DNA of 64,000 bases, from contig NC_092561.1 of assembly GCF_037975245.1 (NCBI RefSeq), positions 5,382,001 to 5,446,000 of the forward strand, read 5' to 3'. This DNA comes from Apostichopus japonicus (lineage: Eukaryota; Echinodermata; Holothuroidea; Aspidochirotida; Stichopodidae). The notes beneath the pieces are model-generated. The model worked only from the letters and a program-made list of their open reading frames with translations. It made no database searches and was not told where the DNA came from. Both the position numbers and the translations under genes were made by a program. The first letter of the stretch is position 1; each line of letters opens with the position of its first letter. Below, one piece after another: positions 1,566-38,693 of this stretch.

Positions 1566-2007
1566 AAACACCAACAGATTATGGATTCACCCAATTGACC
1601 GAAATACTCCTGCTTTCTCTATGGAGGTCAAGGTCAACAGAGGACAAGGTCTAAAAACTTTATAAACATAGTTACTTCACAAAGTAGTGGCTTGGACGTG
1701 TAGCATATATTTGTATGTGGATTGCAGTCATTGACGATTAAGTGCCTGTTGTTTTCAGTGGAGGTCAAATGTCATTTGAGGTCAACAGAGGTCAAGATCT
1801 AAAAACCTTTCAATGACAAATAAGCTTAGAAGTAAAGCTTGAATGAACTTCACACATATGAAAATCCACTTTATTACTGTTGGTACAAGAATTTACGGTA
1901 AATGTTCTCATATAAAAGACTGCAAGGACCCATTATACACCTGTTGGCTTTCTGGTTCTCAGTTCACTGTATCTCTGACATATTTGACTTACTGTTTTCT
2001 TGATTAG

Positions 2008-2240
2008 ATGTAATGAACCTGGACAGCACCACCACTGGCAATAAACGAGGAATGTTCATACCAGAGAGCTGGAATATTCAATGTCTCTGTCAATGGCCAG
2101 TGATCTCGAAGCGCAAGGTATGGAAGAGGGCAGCAGAGTCCAAGGTGAGGACAACACCGGGGACGAGGACCCAACCAGACGAGTCAGTCGAACGAGTCTG
2201 GGAAGCAGCTGGACCAGTAGCACTTGGGAGGAGGGTGGAG
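2008..2240 (+). pseudogene. Exon 2 copy, frameshifted (Bcl-2 family gene copy)
   Basis: Acceptor TTGATTAG precedes 2008 and donor GTGAGG follows 2240. It is 233 nt long against 234 in the intact gene, because one A is missing where the intact copy reads CGAAGAAATG. The reading frame from the upstream phase is therefore lost, but the native frame resumes from ATG at 2081 (MSLSMASDLEAQG) to the donor. Confidence 0.85.
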
Positions 2241-2809
2241 GTGAGGATAGAATTAAACATATGAATACCCAGAGCACGCCGCAGTGCTTCCAAAGAATGC
2301 TCTAAAGCAACTTAAACTCTATCAGACAAAATTGGACACACACAAAATTTGGCAAAGAAAACAAAAATTACCCCCTCGTCCAAACAGTTCGATTCAAATT
2401 GGTTTATATTAGCTCTCATTTTATATTTTGATATTTGTCTCCCTTGCAGGGTAAGTAATAAGTTACAATGGCTATTTTTAACCGGCAGTGATCTAGACAT
2501 TTTCACCTCCAGGAAGTCATCAGTACCTAAATGAATAAATGTCGACAAGGTCAATCGGTTATATCAATTATAAAAGGTTATAAGAAAAGAATCTGAAATT
2601 TCTTGTTTGAAGTTTTTCCTTTTTTGTGAAATTGTTTTCATATAACAATATACAAATATTGATTCCTCATTTGCTGTAATAACCCCCCCCCCCCCACCCA
2701 ATAAAAAAACCTATCGCTTACCTTTCAAGGATGATTTTGACAACGTCAGGAATCCATTTATATCTCAATTTAAGAAAAATGTCTTCGCTCCATATGTTTA
2801 ATACGGCTA

Positions 2810-3105
2810 GAAAATCCTTCCCGATCAAAAAGGGGTACCTATCGGGCTGTGCACGCTTGGTAAATACTTCAGTATCGAAATTGTGGTAAAGACCAAGAAA
2901 CTAGGTTCCAATTCCGTAAGAAAATTGATGTAGGAAATCCAAATAACAAAACGCATGATGTTGGCGCTTTGGATGGTAGAATGAGAAGGATGGGCATTGA
3001 CAGTAGGAGCTCAGTCATAGAGTGTGCACAGTGTTAAAAGGTTACCAGTTCATTCTAGGCACGGTAGAACGAGGTGCTAAGGTTTTTGGGAGACAGGTAA
3101 GCTCG
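2810..3105 (+). repeat. Dispersed repeat family R, long copy
   Basis: This matches about 61340-61650 in the same orientation, with shared stretches GGATGGTAGAATGAGAAGG-like, CACAGTGTTAAAAGGTTACC and GGGAGACAGGTAAGC. It lies in intron 2 of the plus-strand gene copy. The minus-strand gene keeps only the 3' end of it (about 35705-35770), so most was probably lost there. Confidence 0.65.
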
Positions 3106-3202
3106 TCACTCGTAAATATCCAAACAATTTTTGGAATATATCAATTTTAGAAATATTTTTTCCCCCCATATGTTTAATACTACTCTTCTGTGTCGTCTAC
3201 AG

Positions 3203-3439
3203 CATCTGGTAGTGACGTTCCGTTTGAGCAGAGATCTGCCGACGAGCAGGAGGAGTTCTTTAAGAGGATAGGCGACAGACTGGCTCAGATCGGGGACCAG
3301 GTGGTACATGAGTACCATTTTGAATCTGATACCGGTGGACGAGGGGAGGAGGCGGGACCGAGCCAGGCCAGTCTGTTAGCGGAAGAGTCCCGGTCCCTCC
3401 TTGGCAATGGTGCTTCGTCCGGAGGAGTCTCTTGGTCAA
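3203..3439 (+). pseudogene. BH3 exon, first tandem copy
   Basis: This phase 1-1 exon has 237 nt. It contains the BH3 core DRLAQIGDQV and ends at the GTAAGT donor. It is two codons shorter than the intact gene's exon 3, where the sequence reads SQAKASL instead of SQASL. It has drifted more than its twin at its 3' end (SGGVSWSS instead of SGGASGSS). Confidence 0.85.
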
Positions 3440-3852
3440 GTAAGTACCGTGTGCCGGATTGGGACTATGCTTTACGATATGACGCAATTGTATTTTATAG
3501 ATATGTGTAGCTTGTAATTATATATGGAGTACCTGAAGTAGGTAGTTTATGGAAGGTCATGAAAAGAGAAGGTAACCAACTTTTTCAAGTTGAAATCGTT
3601 TGACTTTAGATTCCTGGTTTTCATACAACAATTAAAAGTAACAGAATGAAAAATATTGTATCCGTTGAAATTGGTCATGTGTGATTTTTTGGAATGAGTG
3701 TAAAACAGAAGGAAAAAAAAACAATGAATGGAGTCGTCGTGGCAAAGCTCATCACTCGTAAATATCCAAACCATTAAGTTTTGGAATATATCAATTTTAG
3801 AAATATTTCATCCCTCCATATGTTTAATACTACTCTTCTGTGTCGTCTACAG

Positions 3853-4089
3853 CATCTGGTAGCGACGTTCCGTTTGAGCAGAGATCTGCCGACGAGCAGG
3901 AGGAGTTCTTTAAGAGGATAGGCGACAGACTGGCTCAGATCGGGGACCAGGTTGTTCAGGAGTACCATTTTGAATCTGATACCGGTGGACGAGGGGAGGA
4001 GGCGGGACCGAGCCAGGCCAGTCTGTTAGCGGAAGAGTCCAGGGCCCTCCGTGGCAATGGTGCTTCTTCCGGAGGAGCCTCTGGGTCAA
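3853..4089 (+). pseudogene. BH3 exon, second tandem copy
   Basis: This exon has 237 nt and phase 1-1, so inclusion of both BH3 exons keeps the frame. It is nearly identical to 3203-3439 and closer to the intact gene at its 3' end. Flanking intron sequence is duplicated too: the segment starting at ACTCGTAAATATCCAAAC occurs near 3107 and near 3754. The downstream part of the first unit lacks about 190 bp that this one keeps. Confidence 0.85.
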
Positions 4090-4678
4090 GTAAGTACCGT
4101 GTGCCGGATTGGGGCTATGCTTTACGATATGACGCAATCCGGTTTGTCGGTCATCGATGGATGATGCCTTCAGTCAGATGTAGATTTGGTATTAGTTATA
4201 CGATGGTGGTTTTGTGGTACCCTGCCTTGCGGTGATGGAATATGCAGTTATTTTTAATACGTATGGGTACAGAAGATGTGTGGGGGCACTAGTCATATAA
4301 GCATCGGTTTCATTGTATTTTATAGATATGTGTAGCTTGTAATTATATATGGAGTACCTGAAGTAGGTAGTTCAGGGAAAGGCATGAAAAAGACGGTAAC
4401 CCACTTCTTGAAATCGTTTGACTTTAGATTCCTGGTTTTAATGCAACAATTAAAAGTAACAGAATGAAAAATATTGTATTCGTTTTAATTGGTCATGTGT
4501 GATGTTTTGGAATGAGTGTTAAACAGAAACAAAAAAACAATGAATGGGATCGTCGTGGCAAATTGACACTGAAGAAGAGTTCTGAAGATCATAGAATGTT
4601 CTGGAAATGCAAAATTTACTTGTTTTCGGAGATTTATGAAGTTTCAAGACCATTGTTTCCTCTCCTTCAACCCTGCAG

Positions 4679-4740
4679 CTTCAGAATTGAATGATGCCAT
4701 AGGGAGACGCAACAGAAGGACGGTAGATGGGGTTTCCAGG
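4679..4740 (+). pseudogene. Small 62-nt exon copy
   Basis: Acceptor CCCTGCAG precedes and donor GTAAGA follows. The exon shifts phase from 1 to 0 and reads SELNDAIGRRNRRTVDGVSR. It matches intact-gene exon 4 (34606-34667 minus strand), with changes Ser to Arg and Ile to Asn. Confidence 0.8.
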
Positions 4741-5988
4741 GTAAGACTCACAGAGGAGGGGAATCCAGATTCAAATGTTACTTCTTTTAACTTTGCGTCC
4801 TCCCTTATCTCTTTCCTCGCAAAACTCTTTGCCGTTATCGCTCTACCATTTCCTCAGTGAACTGGAAACCGGCTCTTAGCGCTGCACAACGTTAATAGCA
4901 ACTAGTCATTTCCTCAAGGTGTTTTCTTAATCATGGATTTAGTCGTCCACAAGGTTTTTCCCATGTGGATGAATGGTTTGATGTACACCTTCCATTTTGT
5001 GTCTCATAATAGCTGTACTTGTGGGCATATAAAGTATCATTTTCCTTGTGGGGGTAAGTTCTTGAGGGGACAGGTCAGCCCATCACTCTTAAAATTCCAT
5101 CACAATGACAATTACAACAATTTATTTCGAGCAATTTTGTACAGTACATGAATGTTTAACAAAGTATAAACAATATTTTGATATACAATACAATCTAGAG
5201 AGACAGGCACACACATACACACACACAAAGAACATTCATCATGTTAATTGATATCTAATATTTAAGCTATACAAATGCAAAAAAGCAAACAAGTGCAATG
5301 CTTATCGAATGTTTTCCTCATTTGAATGTAATAAATATACACATAAACTGGATAGAATTTGGTCAAAAGGAACAAAACTCCAAAATAAAATTGAATAACA
5401 TAAAAAAAATATAAAAAATAAGAAAAAGAATTGCCTGATAACTTGTAAGATGATTTTCTCGGGGGAATTTCTTTAAACAGGTGAGGTTCATCGATTAATG
5501 TGTTGGACTATATAGTATTATACACAGGCGATCAAGTCAGTTCCTTAGGTGCAACACAAAACTCTCAACAATTGCCAAGTATGAAACTCTGACCAGTAAT
5601 CAACTCGGCCTTTCGGCTTGCTTTCTGGCCCAGAAGAAAACAAAGTAGGAATTGCATTGTGATGTATATATAACTGCACAATTACATTGACTTACTACAC
5701 CCTGTGTCTGCAATCGTTTTCGTTTCGAATAATAGTGGAGTTGAGAAAGGAAGGTTCAAAGCAGGAATTGCTGGAGCGTTTCAGGTACTTTATTGCATAT
5801 TCCAACGGCCAATTTCTTGAAAACCAAAATTGATACTGGAAGCTGACATCCACTCAAAACATTTCAAGCCTCGTCGAACAATCACGACACGTCGATGTTA
5901 GAGTTTGGCTAAAATTTAAGTCTTGGTTGCTAACTTTAAAGATTTTTTTAAAAAATGCTAATTTAAAAACTTTACGTTACACCTTCAG

Positions 5989-6255
5989 GGTCGGAACCAG
6001 CCCATACCGACGTATGTGATAAGAAGGGTAATCTACGATCGTGCTTATGTGACATTCCAAGAAGCCGTGCAATCGCTCATCAACAGAAACTCTGGCATGG
6101 AGGAAATATCTCAGTTAGCGTTAGTGTTCCATTTTACCAAACAGGCCTGCAAGTTAGCCAAAGCCTTCGGCAGGAAGGCAAACTTCATCAAAGAAAACAG
6201 TATTAACTACATCAGGCATAACTTTGCTGCTTGGATCGACAGCCAGGGTGGTTCG
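5989..6255 (+). pseudogene. BH1/BH2 exon copy with Trp-to-Ser change
   Basis: The 267-nt exon lies between acceptor CACCTTCAG and donor GTAAGT and is fully open. By eye it differs from the intact gene at 9 of 89 residues (Asp to Tyr, Met to Val, Ser to Arg, Pro to Ser, Gln to Lys, Ser to Phe, Gly to Arg, Lys to Asn, Trp to Ser). The last of these hits the BH2 Trp. Few differences are silent, which fits relaxed selection. Confidence 0.85.
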
Positions 6256-6824
6256 GTAAGTCTTCGCAGCCGTTAATCTCATGGTCCATCTTCAAAAGAA
6301 ATAATTTTTCATAAACAAATTTATGGAGAACAATTTCACAATTGTTACAATATTAAATCAGGTGGAACATGAAATTGATTAGACTAACATTATTGGCACC
6401 TACTGATAGAAGAAAAATGGAGGAACAATTATAGATTTACTACACATGGAAGTTTAACTCTCCGAATTACTACCAGGTCATTGAGAACTGTTCTTGTTTT
6501 ACAGACTAGTAAATGTCGCAGTGAGGGAAAATACTCGTGACGATAAAATTGTTTTCAAATTTTTTGCATCGGTTACCATAATCTGACGTATTTCATTGGG
6601 GAAATAGGGATGACCTTCCAGTAGTTATGGTCAAGAAATAACTATCTTGTGTCGATTAATTACGTGTTTCCCAGTTTGAGTAAGCATTAAAAAAATTGCC
6701 TTTAACTTTTAACATTACATTTGTTTGTTGCTCGTATCGTTTTTGTCACACTCAGTAATAACTTACACAGACTGAAAGCAGACAAATATACACACCAATA
6801 TTTTGGTTCATTCTCATATCTTAG

Positions 6825-6881
6825 GGAGCCGTGGTTGAAAGTGATTCCGAAGACTCTGTGCAGGAATCGGAGATAGATTGA
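6825..6881 (+). pseudogene. Last exon copy (acidic tail and stop)
   Basis: Acceptor ATATCTTAG precedes. It reads GAVVESDSEDSVQESEID and then TGA, one residue different from the intact gene (Ala for Val). Downstream sequence leaves the intact copy after about 20 nt and rejoins it near 6950. Confidence 0.8.
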
Positions 6882-9037
6882 CACCAGTTGTGTGCTGTCC
6901 TCATTCAAATACAGATAAGATTGGTCGCGTCCATTTGCAAAAAAATTGCAAAACCCAAGGCTAAGTACTTAATTAAGAAATAATTAATGTCATTATTCTG
7001 ACATTGTTTCGTATATTTTCTCTGCATTTATATCTCTCCCTAACATATTTATTTACGAATTCCTTCTATTTTATACATTTTTTCTTTTCTTTCCGACATC
7101 TCACACGTCACTTTATGCGGACGTTTTATAACAGAGTTTAAATGGTTATTTTGAAGCTAACAAGTCAGCAGCCTATAAGAGTGTCTCAAAACTGAGAAAA
7201 GGGTGCAACTTTCGTGTTGCATTCAATTGACTGTTTTGTCAAAGTACTGGAAAAGATTAAATGCTGACAACACAAAAGCTACTAAAGGGCAGCAATTTAC
7301 AGAAGGCTCTCTTCTGTTTAATTCTGGCATAAACAAATTAATGAGTCAGAACTCTGTAGTACTAAAGATAAGTAAATATGAAAAGAAGTGAAAGAAAATG
7401 GCACCCTTTTTCTAACTTGAGAAAGCAATATGCTGTCGCAATAAACAATGCTTACAACCCCCCCCCCCCCTCTTAATGTTTCTTTTATCGCAAATGCGTG
7501 TGTATAATTATGCTCTTTTCTGAAAACGAGAATATGTGGGACAGATACTCCTTCCATTAAAATCTTCTATCTAATATGAAAGTTTTTGCAGTCGAAAGAA
7601 ATAGATTCACGTCTGAAAATCAATTCGTTATCTTTAGTAAATAACTGTCGAATATTTTGGTTTGATTATTTAGATTAATTGCCCAAACCACTCTTGTGTT
7701 ACAATGAGGCCTATTATTGGCAATGCTTCATCATTAGCATCCGCAAGACAACAATGTATTTGATATTAACATCATCACTGACTCAGGTTTTCAAACTCTC
7801 ATGGATCATTGTTCAATGCTGCCTCTGCATTTTTAAGCTTTTCCATTTTCAACATTTTTGTCCGGTTTCCTGGATAGAAAAATATCTTAAAAAGAGATCA
7901 ACAAGAAGCTCAGCTAGAAAAAGAAACAGAGAACTTTTTAATGTATCTTTTAAAGACAGTGATTCAAAACGGAATCGGTAAGATGAGCACTGACTGTTTG
8001 TCTTCCATAAATATTTTATATCGATTTACTTTCGAATCCTAGACGAGACTGGCTTCTAAAACGATGTCCACCTAAATATATCGAAAAGAAATTTAAGAAT
8101 AGGGTAGACCGTTGTAGGCCGACAATATCGTCGTTCAAAAGACGTGGAAATACGTTTCTTAAATAAGATTGTCTCGAATAGAAATTTGGAAATGATACTG
8201 GGTACCATTTTATACAATGTAATAACTCTTGTATTGTCAAAAGAATACCTCACTGTAACACACACTAGTGACCCCTTTAGAAAAATTAAATAAGTGGAGA
8301 CTTGAAAGTTTCAGACACTGGACAGTTTGAGACACTTTTAGAGTTTCTTTAACACTGTTTATGCAGCTGGCTGTGCGTTGTCCCATCCAAGCTGATTAAA
8401 AAGGTATGTGATGCTATATGTAGCCTAGAAGATTTATTCATTTCTGAAGAAAAAAGAAGATATGAAACAACAAAACAGATTTCCTATAATTTTCCTATCA
8501 TAACAAGTCCTGCATAAGATTGGTAATGAATATTTGAATACCAATCGTAGATATTTGGAATCAGATACAGATTTGTCCCCAAAGTTAAATTTGAGATTAT
8601 TTTGAGATTAGTTTGTTTAGACAGATAGCATTATTGCTGATGGCATCTCCCTCTCATTAGACTGTGAGTAAAGTTAAATTACCATAACAGGAAGTGCACT
8701 TTTTTCTTTACAATGTACGAATTTTCAACAGCAACAAAAAACTTGATTATTATTATACCATTGTTAACTATCCAAATTGAAGTGAAATTTGAGGTTAATT
8801 TCTTTTTTTATTTGTCCAGCTTATGAACTTCCACCTATGCTACCATTTTAAAAGTTAATTTAATTTTAAATTAAATTTTAAAATTGAACATTTAATGTAT
8901 ACCCCATATTATTCTCTGCTTTTAGCGTAGTTGATTTTTCTATTGTAACTATATAAAATCGGTCACATTTATCTCACCAGTCCACATCAGTATTATTTTA
9001 CATGTTGTTTGATTCTCTTTTTAAATCTATTCCTAAT

Positions 9038-10550
9038 TAATTCTTTATCATATGAAATGAGATTTACCCAATTGGTAAAATTACTCTGGTTAAAAGCTTT
9101 GGTATTTTCCAGTTTGTGTACTTATTTCAATGCTTGCCAAATCCTCCGGATTGGTTTATCAAGCAATTGGATACTATTTTATTCAAATTCATCTGGCATG
9201 GGAAACCAGACAAGATTAAACGTAATACGTTGATTAGCTCTATCCCAGAAGGTGGGCTGAATGCAACTCATATTAAAAGTTTCGTACACGGTTTGAAATG
9301 TTCATGGGTTAAGCGTTATACTAGTAACAACACTGCTTTTTGGAAGTTGTACTTTAATTATTACCTTAAGGATTATGGTGCCCATTTGGTTTTTGATTGT
9401 AATTATAAGGCAGTTGATATACACACAAATAATGCATTTATCAATGATATTTTACACGGTTGGACTCTCTTCGCCTTTAAAGATGTCACTGAAAATTATG
9501 AAAGTCAAGTGATATGGAATAAACACAACATAAAGGTGAATAATCGTATTATTTTTTATAAAGCATGGTATAACAATGGAATCAAATTTGTAAGCGATCT
9601 TACTAATGAGGGTGGTAATCTTTAATCTTTTTCTGACTTTAGAGAAAAGTATCATATTAATTGTGCTTTCACTATATACTATGGTGTAATTAGTGCTATT
9701 CCAGGTCATTGGAGAAGGTCATTGAATCACAGTAATACTAATCCTGAAACATTGAACACTCAGGCTATTCAATATCAGTCACGGTTCAATTGTAAGCAGC
9801 TCATTCAAAGGGTAATCACTCGCCCTAAGTCTATTGTTAAATGGAATGATAACTTTGATTTTAATGAGCGTCAATGGAATGTTATCTTTCAAATTATTCC
9901 GTTTAAGTCTTTAAGGGAAACAAAGATACAGTATTTCCAGTATCGCTTTCTTCACAGTATTTTGGGAACAAATTATTTATTATTTCAAACGAAAATGACA
10001 GATAACCCTCGTTGTAATTCTGCGGAGTTAATGATGAAACAATAGAACATCTTTATTGGGAATGTAATATTAGTGCTAGCTTTATGTTAGACGTTGAGCC
10101 AAAAATTTTCAATTGACAGTTTGTTTTTTCCAAGAAAGATGTTTTCTTTGGATATCAACTGTTATTAAAGCATCCATTGAACTTTCTAATATTTTATATC
10201 ATATATTACATTTTTCAGAAGAAAGTTAAAAATGGTTCGTTAATTGTAAACGAATTTTTGTATAAGTTCAAATTTCAACTACAACTGTGGAACATCAATT
10301 ACATAAGAACAAAATACGTGGGCCGTTTTCGTTCCAGACCTTAAAGGCCACTTTTAGTACGTACCCATTTTTATTTGAAGAATAGTGGTTGCTGTTATGC
10401 CATTACTGTTATGTTTATTTGCATAAAGGTTTTAATGCAGAATGTTTACGTTTATGTAGTTTAAGGAAAAATATGTAATGAATGTTGTTGTTGCAAAAGA
10501 TGAACAATAAATGATGGCTAAGGAATGACAACAAAAATGAAATGAGATTC
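9038..10550 (+). mobile_element. L1/Tx1-like LINE, 3' part of ORF2 and 3' UTR
   Basis: From about 9070 to 10340 the plus strand gives the conserved C-terminal part of L1-type ORF2. It includes a GKITLVKAL segment, then FIWHGKPDKIKR (near 9185-9220), a WKLYFNYYL segment, and a Cys-His motif CGVNDETIEHLYWECN at 10021-10068. KKDVFFGYQ and a lysine-rich tail follow. A TAA at 9623 and frameshifts near 9110 and 10018 interrupt it. The 3' end is probably near 10550, after AATAAATGATGG. The 5' end is truncated and coincides with the end of the left duplication arm. Confidence 0.8.
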
Positions 10551-10618
10551 AAAAGTATGTATGAAATTTGGTAAAAACATAACTTTAAAATAAAAAAGAG
10601 AATTGACTTGAATGTCAT

Positions 10619-11680
10619 TTTCGGTTTCCCTAACTTTAGATCTCGCCTGTAATAGTGTAACGGTCGTTGAAGTTGGAACGTTTGATAACACACCGCATCT
10701 TCGAAACCTTCTGCTTTCTCACAACAACTTGAAAGAAATACAAGTGGGTTCTTTTACAGAAACGAAATTTATAGAAAGACTATTTCTAGAACATAGCAAA
10801 TTAGAAGCGATCCGTGAACATGTCTTCAGTAACCTAACAAAAGCAATGACCATTTATTTTGATAATAATCAAATTCGCTTTCTGGAGAAATGTAGCTTTA
10901 ATGGGCTGTTGCGACTACGATGGCTTTGTTGAGCAATAACCAAATTTCTGAACTCGACGAAGAAATATTTAGAAATGTGTCGTCTGGAAACATTAGATCT
11001 CGATCAAAATCAATTGATAACTCTTCCTCGTGGTCTGTTTTAAAGTTTGCTTTTTTTGAGACGAGTAATTCTGTCCGATAACAGAATAACAACCATCCCG
11101 TTACCAATTTATCTGGGACTCATTTCTCCTTTAGAGTTGATGGATGTGCGAAACAATGATATTACGCAATTAACAAGTCTCCTGCCGTATTTCCATGTGA
11201 CTGAAAGGTTTTTGTGCGGTGGGAATCCCTATATTTGTGACTGTGCGTTCATCACACTACAATCACTGTTCAAGAATAATTTATTCCTAGAACAAGTAAT
11301 GTATATACGTTCAAGTCCTGTAACTTGCATGTGGCAAGATGTCAACTTTGAAGTAGATGAGCCGTTGCCATTTGCTTGCCCTGAAGATGGTGAAGTGATA
11401 AATGACGTCACCACATCAACATCACAAGCAATTAACGCATCCTTCACAGAGAACTGAGTCGCAAATTAGTGGAGAGGTATCAACTGAGAGCAAAACAATT
11501 GCTTATGTTGGTAATACAGTTAAAACTGATCAGATGGAGCCGACGGATACTGGAGTTAGAAATCCGATATATGACTGGTTAATCGTATACTGTTCAGTCC
11601 TAATAACACTTGTTCTTGCGTCTTTAATCTACTTCTTCAAGCGTTTACGTTTCCAATCAATACCAATGACTCGCGTTTAA
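10619..11680 (+). pseudogene. LRR membrane-protein pseudogene, paralogue of the 20971-22386 gene
   Basis: The stretch encodes successive leucine-rich repeats (PHLRNLLLSHNNLKEIQ, IYFDNNQIRFLEK, LSNNQISELDEEIFRNV, LETLDLDQNQLITLPRGLF). An LRR C-terminal cap (GGNPYICDCAF), a linker with PEDGEVINDV and a transmembrane segment (WLIVYCSVLITLVLASLIYF) follow. The linker matches PENGEMKDEV of the intact paralogue. The frame moves from frame 1 to 3 near 10929, back near 10980, meets TAA at 11041, then shifts again near 11455. The signal peptide and N-terminal cap are missing. Confidence 0.85.
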
Positions 11681-11715
11681 GGACTAGAACACTCCTGTCT
11701 GGACTCAAAATATAC

Positions 11716-12025
11716 CGGTGCTGTGGCCGAGTGGATAAATGCGGTGGCATTTGAAGCAATGAGGCTTAGCAGACGGGAGGTTCCGGTTTCGAAATCCGGC
11801 CAGGTCATGGTAAGGTGGGGTTTTCATCCAAGAGCAATCTACGGTTTTCCCATCTGAAATGACTTTCTTAATTGAAAACATTCCAAATTTGAGTTTAAAA
11901 TGTTGAATTTGAAGTCACCCCACATGTAAGTTGTAATTCATAAGCACTTTCGGGTTTATCCCACATTTGTGGTCGCTTAAGCGTCGTAAAAATAACTGCT
12001 GGTTATTATCATATTATTGTTAGTT
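11716..12025 (+). mobile_element. tRNA-derived SINE, copy 1 (type II tRNA head)
   Basis: The first 95 or so bases resemble a tRNA with a long variable arm, with A box TGGCCGAGTGG and a B-box-like GGTTTCGAAATCC. A body follows that is shared with 25809-26117: CATCCAAGAGCAATCTACGG, then TTTGTGGTCGCTTAAGCGTC, then an AT-rich tail. The B box is more decayed than in the other copy. Confidence 0.8.
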
Positions 12026-13312
12026 TTAGTATAATAGAGTTCAAATCTATTTTTCAATGGACCTGCACTCTCCTTCAGGTCGTTCATCAAGGCTACATAG
12101 TTATCTTGATGCTGCATTGTGAGTTGATTTGTAACCTTTCGTCACGTTAACGGCGCAATTTATATATATTCACACATTATATGATGTATTCTAACTAAGA
12201 GTATTGATCGGTTACAAAGCTTTAACCCTGGACAGAAAACCGGACAAAACGATGTGCTCCCAGAAATTTGATGTCATACACAGACGTTTCATTACAATAC
12301 CATATATTCCTACGCTTTAAAATTATTACATTGCTGAATATCGGACTGATTTTCATCAGAATTCGATCCCTAATTCATGCACAAGTTTTAGCAGTGAAAT
12401 AATGTAATAAAATAATCAAAAATGAAAATATTTTAAAACGGTTTCATTTAATACATGGGACGCGAAGCAACACCTCTCATCACAATACGGCAGGTTTTTT
12501 TTTCAAGGACAACTGTGAATATTTCAAAATGGGTGTGTTATCTGGACTGATGCAGCAGACAGGCAAAATGTAGCCTTGCCCTCTCAGGTGACTCAGATAG
12601 AGTGAACAATATATGTTAATGAAAGAAACTGCAATCGTATATGAACATGCGTCCAATGACCATGTAGATGAACCAGGAAGCGGTGAAGCCAACTACAATG
12701 ACATATCAGTACTTGGGTATAGGTAGCATTCAGATGTCACTGTATATGACCATTACAGACATGTCAATATTTCCCTATTGTCACAAAAGTTCCTCCCACG
12801 AGTAATCTTTATCGTTCTATTAAGAGTTTGTTACCTTGCTGCTCACGACATGTTTACACTCGTGAATTCAAGTGTTCTTATTCTATGTTACTCGATATAA
12901 GCCCGTTGTGGATGGTGTTTAAGTGTAATCTTTCATTCATTTGTAACGAGTAACATATATATCTTCGCATGGAATTACAACCAAGGAAGTTGCAGAACAG
13001 AGATAATGAGTCAAAAAACGTTTTTTATTCTTGTTTTATACAGTAATGCTTCCAATGTTTATTTGAGTTGTGGTATACAATTTGTGTGACATTGAATAGA
13101 CCATGATCGACTACGTCTCAACGCAAGTCAGAGATGTTGACACAAAATATGCAGTTGCTCTTTATTAACGAGTTCTTGACAATTCAATCCATCATATTAT
13201 TTTTTTCATTTAATATTTTCCATGGTTCGATGTGGCGAACCAAGTTCGAAGATTTTGCGAACTGTTATATTTACCTGTTGTGATTTTGCATGTTTTTTGC
13301 ATGTTTGAATAA
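12026..13312. other. No gene seen
   Basis: AT-rich sequence with only short chance frames. I see no known protein motif, RNA gene or well-bounded repeat. Confidence 0.5.
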
Positions 13313-13332
13313 CCATGGAGGTACCTCCATGG
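13313..13332. repeat. 20-bp perfect palindrome
   Basis: CCATGGAGGTACCTCCATGG reads the same on both strands and has no loop. It may be a chance hairpin or the middle of a small fold-back element, but homology does not extend outside it. Confidence 0.6.
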
Positions 13333-15550: not shown

Positions 15551-15554
15551 TAAA

Positions 15555-15685: not shown

Positions 15686-15896
15686 CCATACATGCATTAC
15701 CTACTACATTAAATTAGGCTTACGTATACACGACTTGAACTTTGTATGGTCTGATAGCTCATGTTGTTGTCCACATATTATGTCGTTCGCTTCAATAATT
15801 ACATTTCCGTAAGGTTGTATTGGCTATTACCGTTGACATATTACGTCTATGTTGGGCCTAGTGTGCCATAAGTCCAATAGACATACGTCGAATTAA

Positions 15897-25808: not shown

Positions 25809-26117
25809 CCGGTGCTGTGGCCGAGTGGATAAAGGCGGTGGCATTTGAAGCAATGAGGCTTAGCAATCGGGAGGTTCGGGGTTCGATTCCCGGCCGGGTC
25901 ATAGTAAGGTGGGTTTTTCATCCAAGAGCAATCTACGGTTTTCCCATCTGAAATGACTTTCTAAATTGAAAAGATTCCAAATTTGAGTTAAAATGTTGAA
26001 TTGGAAGCCACCGGACGTGTAAGTTGTAATCCTCTAAGCCCTTGCAGGTGTCTCCCACATTTGTGGTCGCTTAAGCGTCGTAAAAATTACTGCTGATTAT
26101 TAATATTATTATTAATT
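25809..26117 (+). mobile_element. tRNA-derived SINE, copy 2 (type II tRNA head)
   Basis: Better preserved than copy 1. A box TGGCCGAGTGG, B box GGTTCGATTCC, and a long variable arm. The body is shared with 11716-12025 and the tail is ATT-rich. The 3' strand of the acceptor stem does not pair well, so it is a SINE head and not a tRNA gene. Confidence 0.8.
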
Positions 26118-29399: not shown

Positions 29400-31711
29400 C
29401 ATAGGAATAGATTTAAAAAGCAACAAAACAACATCTAAAATAATACTGATGTGGACTGGTGATAATGTGACCGATTTTATATAGCTAAAATGGAAAAATC
29501 AAATACGCTAAAAGCAGTGCAAAATAATGGGAATACACTAAATATTAAATTTTAAAAATTTAATTTAATGTTAAAACGTTAACATAGGTGGAAGTACATA
29601 AGCTGGACATGTAAAAAAAAAATTACAAAAATTTGCCTCAAATTTCACTTCATTTTGGATAATTATCAAAGGTATAATCATACTCAAGTTTTTTACTTTT
29701 TGTTGTTGAAAATTTGTAATTTGTAAAAGAAAAAAGTGCACTTCATGTTATGATTATTAAACTTTTCTCATGGCCTAATGAGAGGGAGATGCCATCAGCA
29801 ATAATGCTATTTTGTCTAACAAACTAATCTAAAAAATAATCTCAAATTTAACTGTGGGGACAAATCTGTATCTGATTCCAAAAATCTATGATTGATATTC
29901 AAATATTTAATATCAATTTTATGCAGGACTTGTTATGATAGGAAGATTATAGGAAATCAGTCTTGTTGTTTCTTATCTTCTTCTTACTTCAAAAATTAAC
30001 AAATATTAAAAAATCGACCAGGCCACAAATAGCATCACATACCCATTTAATCAGGTTGGATGGAAAAAAACACAGCCAGCTGCATAAACAGTGTAAAAGA
30101 AACTTTTAAAGTGTCTCAAACTTTCAAGTGAATCAAGTCTCTACTTAGTATTTACTTTAAAATTTATAAAGTGGTCACTAATGTGTGTTACGGTGAGGTA
30201 TTTCTTTTGACAATACAAGACTTATTACATTGTATAAAATGATGCACAGTAATCATTCTCAAATTTCTATTTTAGACAATCTTATTTAAGAAACGTATTT
30301 CCACGTCGTTTTTACGTCGATAGTGTCGGCAAATTCTTGACCTACAACGGTCTACACTATCCTTAAAGTTCTTTTCGATATATTTAGGTGGACATTGTTT
30401 TAGAAGACAGTCTCGTCCAGGATTCGAAAGTAAATCGATATAAGACATTAATGGAAGACAAACAGTATGTGCTCATCTTTAACTCTTCCGTTTTGAATCA
30501 CCGTCTTTAAAGAGACATAAAAAGTTCTCTGTTTCTTTTTCTAGCTGAGCTTCATTTTGATCTCTTTCTAAGATATTTTTCTATCCAGGAAACAGGACAA
30601 AACTTGTGGAAAAAGGGAAAAGCTTAAAAAAATGCAGAGGCAGCATAGAAACAATGATCCATGAGAGTTTGAAAACCTGAGTCAGTGATGATGATGTTAA
30701 TATCAAATACATTGTTATGTCTTGCAGATGCTATGATGAAAGCATTGACAATTAACAGGCCTCAATGTATAAACACAAGAGTGGTTGCAGCAATTAATCT
30801 AATTAACCCAAAAATATTTGACAGTTATTTACTAAAGATAACGGATCAATTTTCAGTCGTGAATCTATTTCTCTCAACTGCAAAAACTTTCATATTAGAT
30901 TTGAAGATTTTAAACCCCACATTTTCTCGTTTTCAGAAAAGAGCATAATTATACATAAAATTTGTGTTAAAAGAAAGGGGGGGGGGGTAAGCATTGTTTA
31001 TTGCGACAGTATATTGCTTTCTCCAGTTAGACAAATGGTGCCATTTTTCTTTCACTTCTTTGCACATTAGGCTTATCTTTAGTACTACAGACTTTTGACT
31101 CATTAATGTTTTAATTTTGTCAGCATTTAATCTTTTCCAGTACTTTGACCTTACAGTCAATTGAATGCAATAAGAATGTTGCACCTTTTTCTCAGTTTTG
31201 AAACACTCTTATAGGCTGCTGACTTGTAAGCTTCAAAATAATATTTGAAACTCTGTCACAAAAATGTCCGCATGAGTGACGATGTAAAAAAAAAAGTAAG
31301 ATGTATGAAATAGAAGGAAGTCGTAAATAAATATGTTAGCGAGAGATATAAATGCAGAGAAAATATTAAAAAATGTCAGAATAATGGCATTAATTGTTTC
31401 CTAATTAAGTACTTATCCTTGGGTTTTGAGATGCATATTTCCTTTCTGGGTATTGCCTCTATCTAACAGCAAAACGGTGGGCAAGTTAATCACAGGATTG
31501 GTACAAAAATTGACCAACACAAGAAGAACAAAAAAGGAAGAAAATTATACTACTATTAGAGAAAAGGTTTTTCTGCAAATGGAAGCGACCCACCTCACCT
31601 GTATTTTAATGAGGACACATAACTGCTCTCTTAAGAAAACAAAGGTTAATTCCAGCTCAGATTTTGCAAGAAGTATAACAGTTTGCCTCCAATAGTAATT
31701 ATCGACATTAA

Positions 31712-31717
31712 TTTATT
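31712..31717 (-). promoter_or_regulatory. Candidate polyadenylation signal AATAAA
   Basis: TTTATT on the plus strand is AATAAA on the gene strand, about 270 nt after the stop codon. It is a plausible 3' end for the Bcl-2 family transcript, but AT-rich DNA gives such hexamers by chance. Confidence 0.35.
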
Positions 31718-31986
31718 ATTCACATTTCATAGGATGAACCTCAGCCTCTGCCTCAGCCTCTCTAAAGGTTCATTTTGCGCTGTCGACTAACAGGGATGAA
31801 CACATTTTACCATCATTTATGCTACCAGCCAGGTTTTTTCGTTTTGCTTGCCAAACCATCCGCATGCATCCTTATGCAGATTGCTGTAAATTTCTACCGT
31901 GACTTTCACAGCCTTTACAGGTGCCAGGCAGCAAGCAGAGAAGACAATTCTGACGTCGTCCGACAGAGGGCAGCACACAACTGGCG

Positions 31987-32043
31987 TCAATCTATCTCCG
32001 ATTCCTGGACAGAGTCTTCGGAATCACTTTCGACCACTACTCC
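31987..32043 (-). CDS. Exon 6, acidic C-terminus and stop
   Basis: 57 nt after acceptor TTGTCTTAG, reading GVVVESDSEDSVQESEID and TGA. No hydrophobic tail follows, unlike BCL2, BAX or BAK. The conserved matching exon at 6825-6881 supports it. Confidence 0.82.
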   Translation of the reverse strand, partial: GVVVESDSEDSVQESEID

Positions 32044-33228
32044 CTAAGACAAGAAAATGAATGACCAAAATATTGATGTGTAAATAACTTAGACATCACA
32101 GAAAATTTGTCTGCTTTTAGTCTGTGTAAGTTATTACTGAGTGTTAAAAAATAGATATAAGCAACAAACAAAAGTACTTTTAAAAGTTAAAGGCATTTTT
32201 TTTACTGCTTAATGAAAATGGGAAACACGTCTTCATCGACACAAGATAGTTATTTCTTGACCATAACTACTGGAAGGGTCATCCCTATTTCCCCCAATGA
32301 GCTACATGCAAAACTTTTAAAAACAATTTTATTGGCACGAGCATTTTCCCTCACTGCCACATTTTACTTATTTGTAAACAAGCACAGTTCTCAATGGCCT
32401 GGTAGTAAATAGAAGTGTTAAAATTTCCATGAGTAGTAACTCTACAATTGTTTTTCTTTTTTCTTCTATCAGTAGGTAACCAATAATGATATAGTCTAAT
32501 CAACTTCATGTTCCACCTGATTCAATATTGTAACCATTGTGAAATTGTTCTCCACAAATGTTTTTATATTATTTCTTTTCTGGGTGATTATATGAAAATG
32601 TAATGAAAAGAGACAGATTGAAGGCCGCGAAGACTTACCCAACCGCCCTGGCTGTCGATCCAAGCGGCAAACTTATGCCCGATGTAGTTAATACTGTTTT
32701 CTTTGATGGAGTTTGCCTTCCTGCCGAAGGCTTGGGCTAACTTGCAGGCCTGTTTGGTAAAATGGAACACTAACGCTAACTGAGATATTTCCTCCATGCC
32801 AGGGTTTCTGTTGATGAGCGATTGCACAGCTTCTTGGAATGTCACATAAGCACTGTCGTAGATTACCCTACGTATCATGTCCGTCGGTATGGGCTGGTTC
32901 CGACCCTGCAAGGTGTAACGTAAAGTTTTACATTAGCATTTTCTTTAAATTTTTAAATCTTTAAAATTTAGCAACCAAGACTTGATTTTTAGCGGAACTC
33001 TAGCATGGAACGTGTCGTGATTGTTCGACGAGGCTTGAAATTTTGTGTGTGGATGTCAGCTTCCAGTATCAATTTTTGGTTTTTAAGAAATTGGCCATTG
33101 GAATATGCAAAAGTACCTGAAAAGATCCAGCAATTCCTGTTTTTAAACCTTTCTCTCTCAACTCCATTGTTGTCATAAGGAAACTGATTGCAAACACAGG
33201 GTGAAGTAAGTCAATGTAATTGTGCAGT

Positions 33229-33284
<56 letters not shown>

Positions 33285-36200
33285 GACAATGCAACTCGTA
33301 TTTTTGTTTCTTTGGGCCAGAAAGCAAGCCAAAAGTCCAAGTTGATTACTGGTCAGAGTTTTATACTAGACAATTGTTGAGAGTTCTGTTGCATCTGAGG
33401 AACTGACTTTATCGCCTGTGTATACAACTATATAGTCCAATCACATTTATCGATGAACATCACCTGTTTAAAGGGTAATTTCCCAAAGAAATCCACCCCC
33501 CCTCCCCCTCCCCTAAGAAAATCATCTTACAAGTTATCAGGTATTCATTTTCTTATGTCTTTTTATTAATTTATTTATTTATTTATTTAATTTTTGGGGG
33601 AGTTTTGATTCCTTTCACCAATTTCTCTCCAGTATATGTATATATTTATATTATTCAAATGGGAAAACATTCTATAAGCATTGTGCTTCTTTTTTTCTCC
33701 TTTCCGCGCCTTTGTATAGCTTAAATATTGTATATAAATTATCTTGATGAATGTTTTTTTCTTTCTATGTACCTGACTGTCTAGATTATATTGTATATCA
33801 AAATATTTGTTTATACTTTGTTAAACTTTCATGTACTGTACAAAATTGCTTGAAATATATTGTTGTCATTGTCATTGTAATGGATATTTAAGAGTGATGG
33901 GCTAACCTGTCCCCTGAAGAACTCATCCCCACAAGGAAAATGATACTACATGGGCCCACAAGTACAAATATTCTGAGACACAAAATGGAAGGTGTACATC
34001 AAACCATTCATCCAGATGGGAAATCCTTGTGGACGACTAAAATCCACAATTTAAGAAACACCTCTAGGTACACAGTGACAAGGAAATGACTCGTCGCTAT
34101 TAACGGTGTGCAGCGCTAAAAGCCAGTTTCCAAGTTCACTCTCGAAATGGTAGAGTGATCATGGCTAAGGGTTTAGCGAGGAGACGGATAAAGTTAAAGG
34201 GTGTGAAGACTTGCGCACAAAGAAACATCTAATCCGGGTATCTGACCTAGTTTCGAATGAGGTGTAACAGAATTGTTTATAGACACCACCATCGATCCCA
34301 GAATATACACACACAGTTTGCTACCGTCGGTAATTTGACACTAGTGTACAGTCAATACATACAACTACGGTCATACCCACAACACAGTGTACATAGCAGC
34401 ATGGACATCTCAGGTCTAGATAAAAGAAGACAAGGTATCACTTTTCATTACTGTCTGCATTTTGTAGCGCCAAGAAGAAAACTTCACTTGCAAGCAACGG
34501 AAAGGTAACTTTTTCAGAGCGGGGCACGCGGTTTGGGGCGAGTCTTCAATGCCTTTAAAAGAAGTAACATTTGAAATCTGGATCCCCCTCCTCTGTGAGT
34601 CTTACCCTGGAAACTCCATCTACCGTCCTTCTGATGCGGCTCCCTATGGCATCATTCAAGTCCGAAGCTGTAGGTGGAAAGAGAGAAAAATAGTCTTGAA
34701 ACTTCATAAATCCCCCAAAAACGTGATGAAAAGTTTATTGATGGGGAAATTATTTTTTTTACAAGGCTAAAGATATTTGCAGATAGTGCCTTTTACAGTA
34801 TAACTGTTGCACTTTGTCTACAAATTAGTTTTGGCTTTTAAGGAACATTCTTTGATCGTAGGAACATTTCTTCCGTGTCGATTTGCCACGACAACCCCCA
34901 TTCGTCGTTTTTTTTTCTGTTTTTCACTCATTCCAAAAAATCACACATGACCAATTTCAACGAGATACTATATTTTTCATTCTTTTACTTTTTAATTTTT
35001 GTATAATAACATAATCTAAAGCCCAAACTAGATTTCAATTTGAAGAAAGGGGTTACCTTCCCTTTCCGTGCCTTTCCCTAAACTACCTAATTCAGGTACT
35101 CAATACATAATTACAAGCTACACATATATTAAAAACAATGAAAGTGATGCTTATACGACTAGTACTCCCACACATCTTCTGAACCCATACGTATCAAAAG
35201 AAGCTGCACATTCCATCACCGCAAGGCAGGGTACCTCAAACCCACCATCATGTAACTAATTCCAAATTTGCATCTGACTGAAGGCATCATCCATCAATGA
35301 CCGACTGACCGGGTTGCGTCATATCATAAAGCATAGCCCGAATCCTGCACACGGTACTTACTTGACCCAGAGGCTCCTCCGGACGAAGCACCATTGCCAC
35401 GGAGGGACCGGGACTCTTCCGCCAACAGACTGGCCTTGGCCTGGCTCGGTCCTGCCTCCTCCCCTCGTCCACCGGTATCAGATTCAAAATGGTACTCCTG
35501 TACCACCTGGTCCCCGATCTGGGCCAGTCTGTCGGCTATCCTCTTGAAGAACTCTTCCTGCTCGTCGACAGATCTCTGCTCAAACGGAACGTCGCTACCA
35601 GACGCTGTAGACAACACAGAAGACGAGTAGTATTAAACATATGGAGGGAGGAAATATTTATAAAATTGATATATATTCCAAGAATTACTGGTTTGGATAT
35701 TTATGAGTGACAAGCTTACCTGTCTCCCAACAACCTTAGCACCGTGTTCTACTGTGCCTAGAAGGAACTGGTAGGGGGCAGGGGGGAGGATGGGGATGAA
35801 CTTTGTTTTCTTTGCCAAATTTGTCTGATAGAGTTTAAGTTGGAGCTGATATCGATAGCCTGCTTTTAGAGCATTCTTTGGAAGCACTGTGGTATTCATA
35901 TGTTTAGTTCCATCCTCACCTCCACTCTCCTCCCAAGTACTACTGGTCCAGCTGCTCCCCAGACTTGTTCGACTGACTCGTCTAGATGGGTCCTCGTCCC
36001 CGGTGTTTTCCTCGCCTTGGACTCTGCTGCCCTCTTCCAGACCTTGCGCTTCCAGATCACTGGCCATCGACAGAGACATTGAATATTCCAGCTCTCTGGT
36101 ATGGACATTTCTTCGTATATGGCCGGGGGTGGTGCTGTCCAGGTTCATTACATCTACCGAGAAAACAGAAAGTCAAATATGTCAGAGATACAGTGAACTG

Positions 36201-38693
36201 AGAACCAGAAAGCCAACAGGAGGTGTATAGTGGGTCCTTGCAATCTTTCATATGAGAACATTTACGGTAAAACTATTGTACCTTACAGTGATAAAGTGGA
36301 TTTTCATATGTGTGAAGTTCATTCAAGCTTTACTTATAAAGTTATTTGTCATTAAAAGGTTTCCAGATCTTGACCTCTGTTGACCTCAAATGACATTTGA
36401 CCTCCACTGAAAAGAACAGGCACTTAATCTTCGATGACTGCAATCCACATACCAAAGTATGCAACACGTGTGAAGAAACTATGTTTATAAAGTTTCAGAC
36501 CTTGGCCTCTGTTGACATTGACCTCCATAGAGAAATCAGGATTATTTCAGTCAATGAGGTGAATCCACATACCATGTGTGAAAGCTCATCCATCAAAGCT
36601 TTACTTTTCAAGTTACTGTGTTTACAACATTTTCAGACCTTGTCCTCTAATATTTAACCTTTCCTGACCTTTGATCCTCAGAGCTTAAAATAGCTAATTC
36701 TTGTACTCACATAGGACAATCTGCATATCAAGTAAACAAGTTACAACACATCTACTGTGAGCTTTCATTTGTTTTCATACATTAAAACGTAATGACCCTC
36801 AACCGACCTTTAACCTCCACAAAAAACAAAGCAACGACTGTGTAATGAAACTAAAGAAAGTCTTGGGTCATTGTGACCCAAGACTGTGTAATGTCAGAAG
36901 AAGCATAAGAAACTAAAGAAAGACTTGGGTCATTGTGACCTCATTCAACGAATCTTTGTGTTTGAAAAATACAGAAAAATCAACTGTGAAAAGCAAAATG
37001 CACACTTCAAAACCTCTCCGTTTAGGGCCCACATTTGACTACCCATTCCCGAAAAAAGTATTAAATATTCAGATACTTGATAAAAGATATCGAGACAACA
37101 TAAAACATTTGCATAAATTTGCGATGGTATCTTACCATTTAGACCCCTCCTTGATCTTTCAGCCCGGCGCTCTCTGAATATTAAGGAGGTCGGTCTACTG
37201 GTCCTTCTGTCTGAGCCCTCTGAAGAGGCTAGCGAGCCGTTGGATTCCCTCAGACCGTGAGGAACAGATCGAGGTCTTTCGCTTCGAGGGATCGGACCGT
37301 ACAAGATTTGAGAATCGCTGAAGTTACCTGAGCTGCGAAGGTGGATGCCCCTCCGTATGTCTATCACCATCTTCCTACGTTCGGTTTCGTTTAATGAAAG
37401 AGTGTAATTGCTGCTGATGTCGCTGGACGAGGCCCAATCCCGCATGGAGGCCGAGTCGGAGGCCCCCGCGGCGCTCTCGTCGGTCGGGGTGGGGACGTTT
37501 TTCTTCGACCGCCTCTTGAACGGCCAACGCCTCGAGTGTTTGTCTTTGGATTCGCTGCGATTCAGGGACTTGTTCTTCTCCGACGATTTGCTTTCGTCCG
37601 ACGTCTTCTTCCTGTCCAACGAACTTCTCTTCTCTGAGCTCTTGTTTCTCTCCAGGGATTTGTTCCGCTCAGCGGTGGTGCTCGGCGAGCCCCTCGGAGA
37701 CGGTTCGTCTCTAGATTTCTTGTTGTCCTTACGACTGAATGTCCGTTTTAATCTGGAAGTGAACCCTGTCTTTTTCATCTCGGAGTGGACCTCTTCCTTT
37801 GCACACGATGGGGAATAGCTGTCCTCGTCTGCAACGACAATCGTCTTCCTCTGCGTGCTGGGAGACCGCATTATCCGTTTGGCTTTTTCCAGAATGCTCT
37901 TCTTTCGCTTGACATCCTTCCTCTCCTTCCTCTGGTGATCTCTGGTCAGGGTCAAAGACCCGTTCTCTAGAGTTTCAATCTCTGCCTCGCTGACTCTCTG
38001 AACGTGGAGTCGCAATGTCGAAGGAGCGGACCTGCTCTTCCCCACCTCTGGGGAAGAGAGCTCGTCGTCTGCGATGTTATCAGCCCCCGAGAGCTCTACC
38101 TCTAATGTGTTTTCCATCGCCCATACATAACTCTCGTGGCCCCGAGGTAAGACCGTTCGCTCCGACCTGTCCCTCAGTTTCACCTCCGTCTTGTCGTTCG
38201 TTTCGCTGGTCTCCTCTCGTATTTCCTGCCTCTGCACCACGGTGACCGTGTTCCTGGTGGGCCTGGATTTTTTCCGCCTCTTCTCCCTCTCAAAGTACTC
38301 TTTGGTTAGAACTGCATCGTTTAAACTTTTACTCCTTCTCTTCAGGAACATTTCCATGACTTTAACGGTGTCCGCTCTCACCTGCGGTAGACTACTCTCC
38401 TTCCTCATACTGTGGGGTACCTTGGGAGAGGAGGGGCATGTCTTCTCCGCCTTGGGGGAATTATCTTTGGGTTTGTACTTCCGAGCCTTTAATGTTCCCG
38501 AATTTGAAGACAGAGGTGAATCCGCTGGGGAAGCTATTGCACAGTCTACCTCCGTAGTTATCGGAGGGGTGATGTCCCCAGCGTCCATGAACTCGATGCT
38601 GTCGTCTAGCCCCGTGATGGACTCCATCGTGGCTGTCGGTGGGGTCCTAATCGGGGTCTGTGCCCCTACGACTATGTCTGGAGTGGTAGCCAT
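31987..38693 (-). CDS. Bcl-2 family protein with BH3, BH1-like and BH2 motifs, Bcl-G (BCL2L14)-like, six coding exons
   Basis: CDS exons on the minus strand are 38693-37136, 36153-35920, 35604-35362, 34667-34606, 32905-32639 and 32043-31987. Phases are 1, 1, 1, 0, 0, total 2421 nt, 806 residues. Residues 1-519 are charged, Ser-rich and probably disordered. BH3 is near 618-634 (RLAQIGDQV, with the LxxxGD core at 624-629). A degenerate BH1-like helix lies near 731-759. BH2 is FAAWIDSQGGW at 778-788, with an intron directly after the Trp. The C-terminus is acidic (ESDSEDSVQESEID) with no membrane anchor. Bcl-2 proteins control mitochondrial cell death. A long N-terminal extension, BH3 plus BH2 and no tail match Bcl-G, though the human protein is only 327 residues. 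Whether it promotes or blocks death cannot be read from sequence. The frame stays open upstream to an acceptor at 38734, so more N-terminal exons are possible. Confidence 0.85.
32639..32905 (-). CDS. Exon 5, BH1/BH2 core
   Basis: 267 nt, phase 0 to 0, acceptor CACCTTGCAG, donor GTAAGT. Residues 700-788 form the helical Bcl-2 core (YVTFQEAVQSL, LALVFHFTKQACKLAQAF, then FAAWIDSQGGW). The canonical Asn-Trp-Gly-Arg of BH1 is reduced to NPG. The exon ends exactly after the BH2 Trp, near where many Bcl-2 family genes have an intron. Confidence 0.9.
33233..33281. repeat. TA microsatellite in intron 5
   Basis: About 49 bp of uninterrupted TA. The matching place in the left arm (near 5665) has only a few TA units, so the run expanded after the duplication or was lost there. 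Confidence 0.9.
34606..34667 (-). CDS. Exon 4, small phase-changing exon
   Basis: 62 nt between ACCTACAG and GTAAGA. It reads SDLNDAIGSRIRRTVDGVSR after a split Thr codon, and changes phase from 1 to 0. Without it exons 3 and 5 are out of frame, and it is conserved in the plus-strand copy, so it is well supported despite its size. Confidence 0.82.
35362..35604 (-). CDS. Exon 3, BH3 exon
   Basis: 243 nt, phase 1 to 1, acceptor TTGTCTACAG, donor GTAAGT. Residues 598-678 include FFKRIADRLAQIGDQVVQEY. LAQIGD fits the BH3 core of Leu, three residues, Gly-Asp, and looks most like the BID/BAK type. The plus-strand copy has this exon twice. Confidence 0.88.
35920..36153 (-). CDS. Exon 2 of the Bcl-2 family gene
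   Basis: 234 nt, phase 1 to 1, between acceptor TTTTCTCGGTAG and donor GTGAGG. It encodes residues 520-597, which are acidic and Ser-rich (GEENTGDEDPSRRVSRTS), with an internal MSLSMASDLEAQG. Confidence 0.85.
36370..36830. repeat. Degenerate tandem repeat, about 125 bp units (TGACCTC words)
   Basis: Three or more units share TTTCAGACCTTG, GTTGACCTC, TTTGACCTCCA and GCAATCCACATACCA-like words. The left arm ends inside this array (near 1580). Confidence 0.6.
36860..36884. repeat. Small perfect hairpin with a nearby partial direct copy
   Basis: GTCTTGGGTCA, loop TTG, TGACCCAAGAC gives an 11-bp stem. AAACTAAAGAAAG plus CTTGGGTCATTGTGACC occurs again near 36911-36940. It lies in intron 1. Confidence 0.7.
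37136..38693 (-). CDS. Exon 1 (coding part), charged Ser-rich N-terminal region
   Basis: The 1558-nt exon ends at donor GTAAGA with phase 1. The encoded 519 residues have Thr/Pro-rich starts (TPIRTPPTATME), a basic helix-prone segment near 110-150 (VKVMEMFLKRRSKSL), and an internally repetitive Lys/Ser/Arg block near 340-410 (ERNKSLERNKSSEKRSS). A more conserved-looking stretch, NETERRKMVIDIRRGIHLRS, lies near 440-460. The higher GC and CpG content compared with the surroundings supports coding. No copy exists on the plus-strand gene. The start ATG is followed by a good frame, but no in-frame stop separates it from the acceptor at 38734. Confidence 0.85.

Follow-up and report, generated by a model that had tools for sequence, protein, structure and literature searches.

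Within the Bcl-2 family, BCL-G (BCL2L14) and BFK (BCL2L15) carry the Bcl-2 homology motifs BH3 and BH2 and lack BH1, as set out in a review of BCL-G (PMC10244440), and in both of them BH3 precedes BH2. Deletion of BH2 from human and mouse BCL-G raises binding to BCL-XL, and that review treats the evolutionary conservation of the BCL-G group as an open question (PMC10244440). In Bcl-2, Bcl-xL and Bcl-w, an exon border lies at the BH2 tryptophan of GGW (PMC8998228). Here we describe a predicted gene of this kind, hereafter gene B, in the holothuroid Apostichopus japonicus, together with an apparent truncated and inverted copy of it (copy A, on arm A of an inverted duplication whose other arm, B, lies in gene B) and a further copy on another contig, C15. 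The window that was analysed is a stretch of 64,000 nucleotides (assembly GCF_037975245.1, contig NC_092561.1, here C1, positions 5382001–5446000), and the genome searched comprises 671,581,487 bases in 35 contigs; unless a contig is named, positions are those of the window, and the features are collected in Table 1. In this genome, contig C35 (16,099 bp) carries a COX1 that requires TGA to be read as tryptophan and stays open to its end under the echinoderm mitochondrial code; as an open frame does not by itself prove that code, the assignment draws also on the COX1 residues expected at AAA and AGA codons. We consider it highly probable that gene B is the parent, that copy A arose from it by inverted partial duplication, and that doubling of the BH3 exon, a change of the BH2 tryptophan to serine and a copy to C15 followed.

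Gene B is modelled as six exons that join into one frame of 807 amino acids on the minus strand, in arm B and beyond it. Its third exon contains the BH3 pattern hydrophobic-x3-L-x2-hydrophobic-G-D-x-hydrophobic, and the four exons tested for this pattern all have it, namely the single BH3 exon in gene B, 3a in copy A, and both 3a and 3b in C15; the BH3 letters of exon 3b of copy A are identical to those of its exon 3a. Exon 5 reads WIDSQGGW before GTAAGT, with the exon border at the BH2 tryptophan as in Bcl-2, Bcl-xL and Bcl-w; the corresponding residue is serine (GGS) in both copy A and C15. These same family members are also matched weakly at the profile level over exon 5: against Pfam PF00452, gene B reaches 23.5 bits (E 8.6e-5) with exon 5 and 22.9 bits with exons 3–6, and copy A 16.1 and 13.9 bits, respectively, all below the cut-off of 31.4 bits. 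Exon 3 of gene B matches Pfam BID at E 0.0077, again below the cut-off, and a PF00452 profile search of the genome returned nine exon matches, gene B not among them. An AlphaFold model of exon 5 alone, built from a three-sequence input, has three helices (predicted local distance difference test, pLDDT, 70.5; predicted template modelling score, pTM, 0.48); compared with the PDB it has no match at E ≤ 0.001 and no Bcl-2 protein in the best 50 of 54 rows, and phmmer against PDB sequences gives Bcl-2-like protein 2 as its best match, at E 0.24. The BH1 motif is NWGR; where it would be expected, gene B reads NPGMEEISQ, and inspection finds no BH1 and no hydrophobic tail.

Since BCL-G is described by just this combination, BH3 and BH2 with no BH1, we call gene B BCL-G-like, a predicted protein without BH1 or membrane tail, by which we mean likeness and not orthology. 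Gene B has the motif order of BCL-G and BFK and the short acidic C-terminal end without membrane anchor that is also seen in BCL-G. It differs from multi-motif Bcl-2 genes in having no BH1, no transmembrane exon and a score below the Pfam cut-off. Copy A and C15 depart from BCL-G in their two BH3 exons and the missing BH2 tryptophan. The first exon of gene B, with 519 codons, exceeds the whole of human BCL-G (327 residues; PMC10244440). Among the papers listed on two-BH3 proteins, tandem exons, echinoderm Bcl-2 or BCL2L14, Bcl-2 in this animal and invertebrate BCL-G, no title or abstract start names this gene; PMC6927658 uses the term 'two BH3 motifs'.

The inverted arms were delineated by comparing the window with itself by BLAST (rows under 100 columns dropped) and by global alignment. 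In the self-comparison, 1582→9035 on the plus strand matches 36567→29402 on the minus strand, collinear and inverted, in pieces of 82–90% identity, the longest of which has 1,764 columns and a bit score of 1605; a chance origin of these matches is excluded. Arm A measures 7,454 bp and arm B 7,166 bp, with a spacer of 20,366 bp between them (9036–29401), and the global alignment has 5,235 identical positions among 5,974 ungapped columns inside 1582–9035 (87.6%). The geometry and order of the pieces are visible in the DNA itself. A sequence-only reading of the window had proposed an inverted duplication of about 7.4 kb with arms about 20 kb apart, and both alignments agree with it; the self-comparison, a check of the dot-plot type that it had suggested, returns both arms. 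Also borne out are its placing of the gene's exons on both strands in opposite orientation, its breakpoint within intron 1 and its loss of the large first exon from the plus-strand copy: predicted exons 2–6 are present in both arms, 1582/36567 falls in the modelled intron of gene B at 37135–36154, and exon 1 has a single genome match (best 72 of 87 candidates scored). Genome matches number two for exon 2 (A and B) and three for the BH2 exon; those for the BH3 exon number five and are spread over three loci, namely A, B and a place on C15 close to 2.713 Mb. As exon 1 is found at gene B and its match is single, we take gene B, a complete predicted BH3-plus-BH2 gene, as the parent of the copies. 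An exon 1 hidden near arm A was considered and rejected on the same single match.

Outside exons, the arms differ at 12–15% of positions (82/580, 185/1,232, 80/549 and 116/939 in four noncoding blocks), a separate alignment of noncoding sequence has 446 differences in 3,414, and the longest perfect run between the arms in the global alignment is 68 bp. Segmental duplications are usually defined by a length of at least 1 kb and an identity of at least 90%. At more than 7 kb and 87.6% identity, the two arms fall outside this definition, and we read them as an old duplication.

The frames of copy A are open from exon 3 to exon 6, with intact predicted splice borders, and exon 2 reads from an internal ATG into exon 3 in frame. 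Its BH3 exon lies in a tandem duplication, the units of which match in the self-comparison at 3099–3488 against 3745–4138 (95%) and at 3487–3746 against 4312–4562 (90%). Both BH3 exons start and end in phase 1 and therefore the inclusion of both keeps the frame; that they are in fact spliced together is a prediction from their borders. Exons 3a and 3b differ at 5 of 55 synonymous sites and have in common a 6-base deletion and a V-to-A change.

The locus on C15 emerged from a comparison of the window with the genome, in which matches under 150 columns, matches with E above 1e-15 and self-matches closer than 1,500 bp were dropped. C15:2712403–2728542 is collinear, apart from gaps, with window positions 3099–20837, that is, with arm A and half of the spacer, in seven blocks of 3,100 columns at 93.8% identity, 1,690 at 98.4%, 2,401 at 91.8%, 2,040 at 94.5%, 1,698 at 92.8%, 1,595 at 94.6% and 1,508 at 83.2% (window 14035–15497). 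Six of the seven blocks come within the usual definition of a segmental duplication and the 83.2% block does not; noncoding differences between A and C15 amount to 26/581, 49/1,226, 7/563 and 16/1,039 in four blocks. C15 has two BH3 exons, and both the internal-deletion junction and the unit-to-unit junction are the same as those of A. It is without exons 1 and 2 and without the counterpart of 7926–10401 of A, and its exon 5 has an in-frame deletion of 69 bp in BH2. Because A matches B past both ends of the C15 homology (1582–3098 and 7926–9035), the events are best ordered from B to A, with BH3 doubling in A, and then from A to C15. C15 as the source of A was rejected on this same extension, and independent doubling of the BH3 exon in A and C15 was rejected on the identity of the two junctions.

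Of 57 synonymous sites, none distinguishes the two BH3 exons within C15, which makes conversion between them likely; the case for conversion between exons 3a and 3b within A is weaker. A and C15 differ at 105 of 2,374 positions in 3745–6173 (4.4%) versus 23 of 1,565 in 6236–7925 (1.5%; P 1e-7), the latter block pairing with C15:2715729–2717413, and this lower divergence suggests later interchromosomal gene conversion between A and C15 in the 3′ part.

Selection was assessed by the ratio of nonsynonymous to synonymous substitution rates (dN/dS) on ungapped codons, 2 codons in exon 3 and 23 in exon 5 of C15 being dropped for gaps. Exon 1 was left out for want of a partner, as was the part of exon 2 ahead of the frameshift, and exon 2 as a whole wherever C15, which does not have it, was compared. 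Between A and B, dN/dS is 0.22 over exons 3b–6 (bootstrap 0.11–0.44), 0.32 with exon 3a instead (0.16–0.61) and 0.15 in exon 2 after the frameshift (0.03–0.40). Under the null hypothesis, a simple model applied to small counts, A has evolved neutrally from the duplication onward and B has been under full constraint; when exon 3b is used and exon 2 is included, 23 of 53 changes are nonsynonymous (P 0.014 transition-weighted, 0.004 unweighted). The terminal branch of C15 has 6 synonymous and 22 nonsynonymous changes (P 0.76), and for this reason C15 looks as if it evolves neutrally. The signs of past selection on copy A are modest, and constraint may have acted on it during part of its history.

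The proposed history would run as follows. A piece of gene B, from intron 1 to beyond the 3′ end, would have been copied in inverted orientation into an array of leucine-rich repeat (LRR) units, giving arm A without exon 1. The BH3 exon would then have doubled in tandem within A, the equal phases keeping the frame, and the BH2 tryptophan would have changed to serine; later, arm A with the adjoining half of the spacer would have been copied to C15. The duplication itself is ordinary and old; what makes it of use is that three copies reveal an order of events, from truncation through in-frame doubling of the BH3 exon and loss of the BH2 tryptophan to spread to another chromosome. Copy A today is more likely a slowly decaying gene than the source of a small two-BH3 protein. 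That it makes a short bivalent pro-death protein, with a pair of BH3 helices in one frame and a BH2 end that has lost its tryptophan, seems to us unlikely. If it did, exon 1 loss, BH3 doubling and BH2 spoiling would all push the same way, making an unrestrained double-BH3 ligand from a restrained protein; C15, whose BH2 was shortened in frame, would then be either a next stage or the decay of that ligand. Such a product, if made, would provide a natural experiment on BH2 as a possible restraint of BH3 in BCL-G-like proteins.

Several observations weigh against this account. Copy A has no exon 1, its exon 2 has a 1-bp deletion and out-of-frame ATGs ahead of the internal start, and the loss of its conserved BH2 tryptophan, taken with the missing exon and the frameshift, fits a pseudogene. 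When exon 3a takes the place of exon 3b, the test of the null is marginal (26 of 53 changes nonsynonymous; P 0.084 transition-weighted, 0.034 unweighted). On the terminal branch of A, synonymous and nonsynonymous changes number 5 each (P 0.084 against neutrality), the terminal-branch counts pooling exons 3a and 3b, which are not independent. The informative sites of 3745–7925 mostly speak against exchange between the arms, A going with C15 at 409 of 475 and with B at 66; on the other side, 3745–4344, which includes exon 3b, splits 32 to 24 among 56 sites, two runs of five A=B sites lie at exon 3b (3947–4001, 55 bp, and 4051–4099, 49 bp), and a run of seven A=B sites over 14 bp (5373–5386) is reached by 0 of 2,000 shuffles. 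Fast change in C15 explains the signal at exon 3b at least in part, and there may be small patches of A–B conversion.

Copy A could be a plain pseudogene, unexpressed without the old promoter and exon 1, with open exons that are simply left over. This competes only with a still-working copy A and agrees with the duplication history, and we put its probability slightly above even. It draws on the lost exon 1, the exon 2 frameshift and the change from GGW to GGS, on the neutral-like counts of the sister copy C15 and on the P of 0.084 for the neutral null with exon 3a; set against it are the frames and predicted splice borders that are intact from exon 3a to exon 6, with a length change of 6 bases in exon 3, and an A–B dN/dS with exon 3b that lies below the expectation for one constrained and one neutral copy. 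An assembly artefact, with two haplotypes of one gene set in inverted orientation, was the alternative raised by the sequence-only reading, and the evidence does come from a single assembly. We nevertheless regard its probability as close to negligible: the arms diverge by 12–15% in noncoding sequence, their flanks are unlike on both sides, exon 1 stands at one arm only, and the doubled BH3 exon of A recurs, with other A-specific features, at a third locus on another contig. The assembly described in PMC10344927, if it is the same genome, was moreover built from HiFi reads.

Inversion of the spacer by recombination between the arms had also been proposed. The arms of an active hotspot, recombining and flipping the 20-kb spacer and the LRR gene in it, might well look like these in length (7.2–7.5 kb) and opposite orientation, and in yeast gene conversion takes place between genes 83–85% identical, at rates near 1e-8 (PMC3924818). 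In yeast, however, crossing over falls 330-fold at 14% divergence (PMC4209137), and the minimal perfect segment for recombination is roughly 200 bp (PMC3924818). Spacer inversion is unsupported because the arms are 12–15% diverged outside exons and their longest perfect run, 68 bp, falls short of that minimum. Furthermore, arm A and the half of the spacer next to it keep the same relative orientation in C15, the LRR units of the spacer are direct with the LRR array to the left, and in 3745–7925 no A=B run exceeds seven consecutive sites or spans more than 55 bp. Neither A–B exchange nor spacer inversion is convincingly seen in the compared stretch 3745–7925 or in the orientation of C15 and the left array. 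We judge a present-day hotspot very improbable, and the arms now appear too different to be a likely substrate for inversion. The inverted low-copy repeats of human 15q25 and 22q11.2, which mediate recurrent rearrangement, likewise place long repeats around a gene-bearing segment; those repeats are of high identity, whereas the arms here are 87.6% identical. The case is a warning that long inverted arms picked out by eye should be checked for divergence before any inference of recombination.

Table 1 Predicted features of the inverted duplication, its spacer and its left flank (window positions).
Feature	Position	Strand	Description	Basis
Arm A	1582–9035	+	Putative truncated daughter copy, from within intron 1 to exon 6, plus 3′ sequence	Inverted match to 36567–29402
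Arm B	29402–36567	−	Duplicated portion of putative parent gene	Inverted matches, global alignment
Gene B exon 1	37136–38693	−	519 codons from ATG, S/K/R-rich; absent from arm A	Gene model
Gene B exon 2	35920–36153	−	AG/GT borders	Gene model
Gene B exon 3	35362–35604	−	BH3 motif IADRLAQIGDQV, phase 1-1	Gene model, BH3 pattern
Gene B exon 4	34606–34667	−		Gene model
Gene B exon 5	32639–32905	−	BH2 region, ends exactly at GGW	Gene model, border in sequence
Gene B exon 6	31987–32043	−	Final 18 codons plus stop; tail acidic, without hydrophobic segment	Gene model
Copy A exon 2	2008–2240	+	1 bp shorter than in gene B, giving a frameshift; open from internal ATG	
Copy A exon 3a	3203–3439	+	BH3, first copy, phase 1-1	
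Copy A exon 3b	3853–4089	+	BH3, second copy, phase 1-1	
Copy A exon 4	4679–4740	+		Gene model
Copy A exon 5	5989–6255	+	GGW to GGS, last residue S instead of W	
Copy A exon 6	6825–6881	+	Stop same as in gene B	
Tandem duplication with BH3 exon	3099–4562	+	First unit without about 173 bases found in the middle of the second	
LRR unit remnant, tandem	870–1577	+	Ends where arm A starts	84–85% identity to 15891–16583
Dispersed-element fragment	9061–10400	+	LINE-like by frame (long interspersed nuclear element); right end of arm A	
Spacer portion copied to C15 with arm A	10402–20837	+		
LRR pseudogene	about 10615–11737	+	Internal stops, 5′ end missing	
Open LRR gene	20926–22386	+	486 codons stop to stop	Pfam LRR_8, E 2.6e-35

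Arm A is embedded in a tandem array of LRR units, beside which gene B lies and which extends beyond the left edge of the window; there, further LRR units, from −25523 to 1577, stand in direct orientation to 10632–25383. The unit remnant at the left edge ends four bases before the start of arm A (ten in the self-comparison). Of the two LRR genes that the sequence-only reading had placed in the spacer, one is open, as claimed, and the other is a pseudogene. An LRR gene in the left array that is open for 500 codons (−23336 to −21837) is a relative of this pseudogene, and that array also holds damaged relatives. A genome search with 10640–13400 gives at least four long copies (three on C1, one on C15) among 40 rows, the best of 3,191 candidates. 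The remaining 36 rows, a lower bound, are a dispersed repeat of about 310 bp at 88–92% identity, which occurs in the window at 11714–12022 and 25808–26114, the second copy being among the 36. The LINE-like fragment has at least 54 genome matches (best 40 of 88 candidates scored) and no Pfam match for 9056–9625 (E up to 1) or 9626–10045 (E up to 0.1). A reverse transcriptase fragment lies on the minus strand of the spacer at 18765–19166 (Pfam RVT_1, E 6e-10).

Rfam and tRNA scans of the window gave zero hits each. To the right of gene B, a 392-bp unit is present in three tandem copies, 93% alike, at 51667–52828, and a 16-bp minisatellite at 60694–61257 has 35 copies, with three frames of one strand open. 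Two short tandem repeats, at 56983–57021 and 58442–58473, lie 1.4 kb apart with units that are seemingly mutual reverse complements, and may be the ends of a small transposon.

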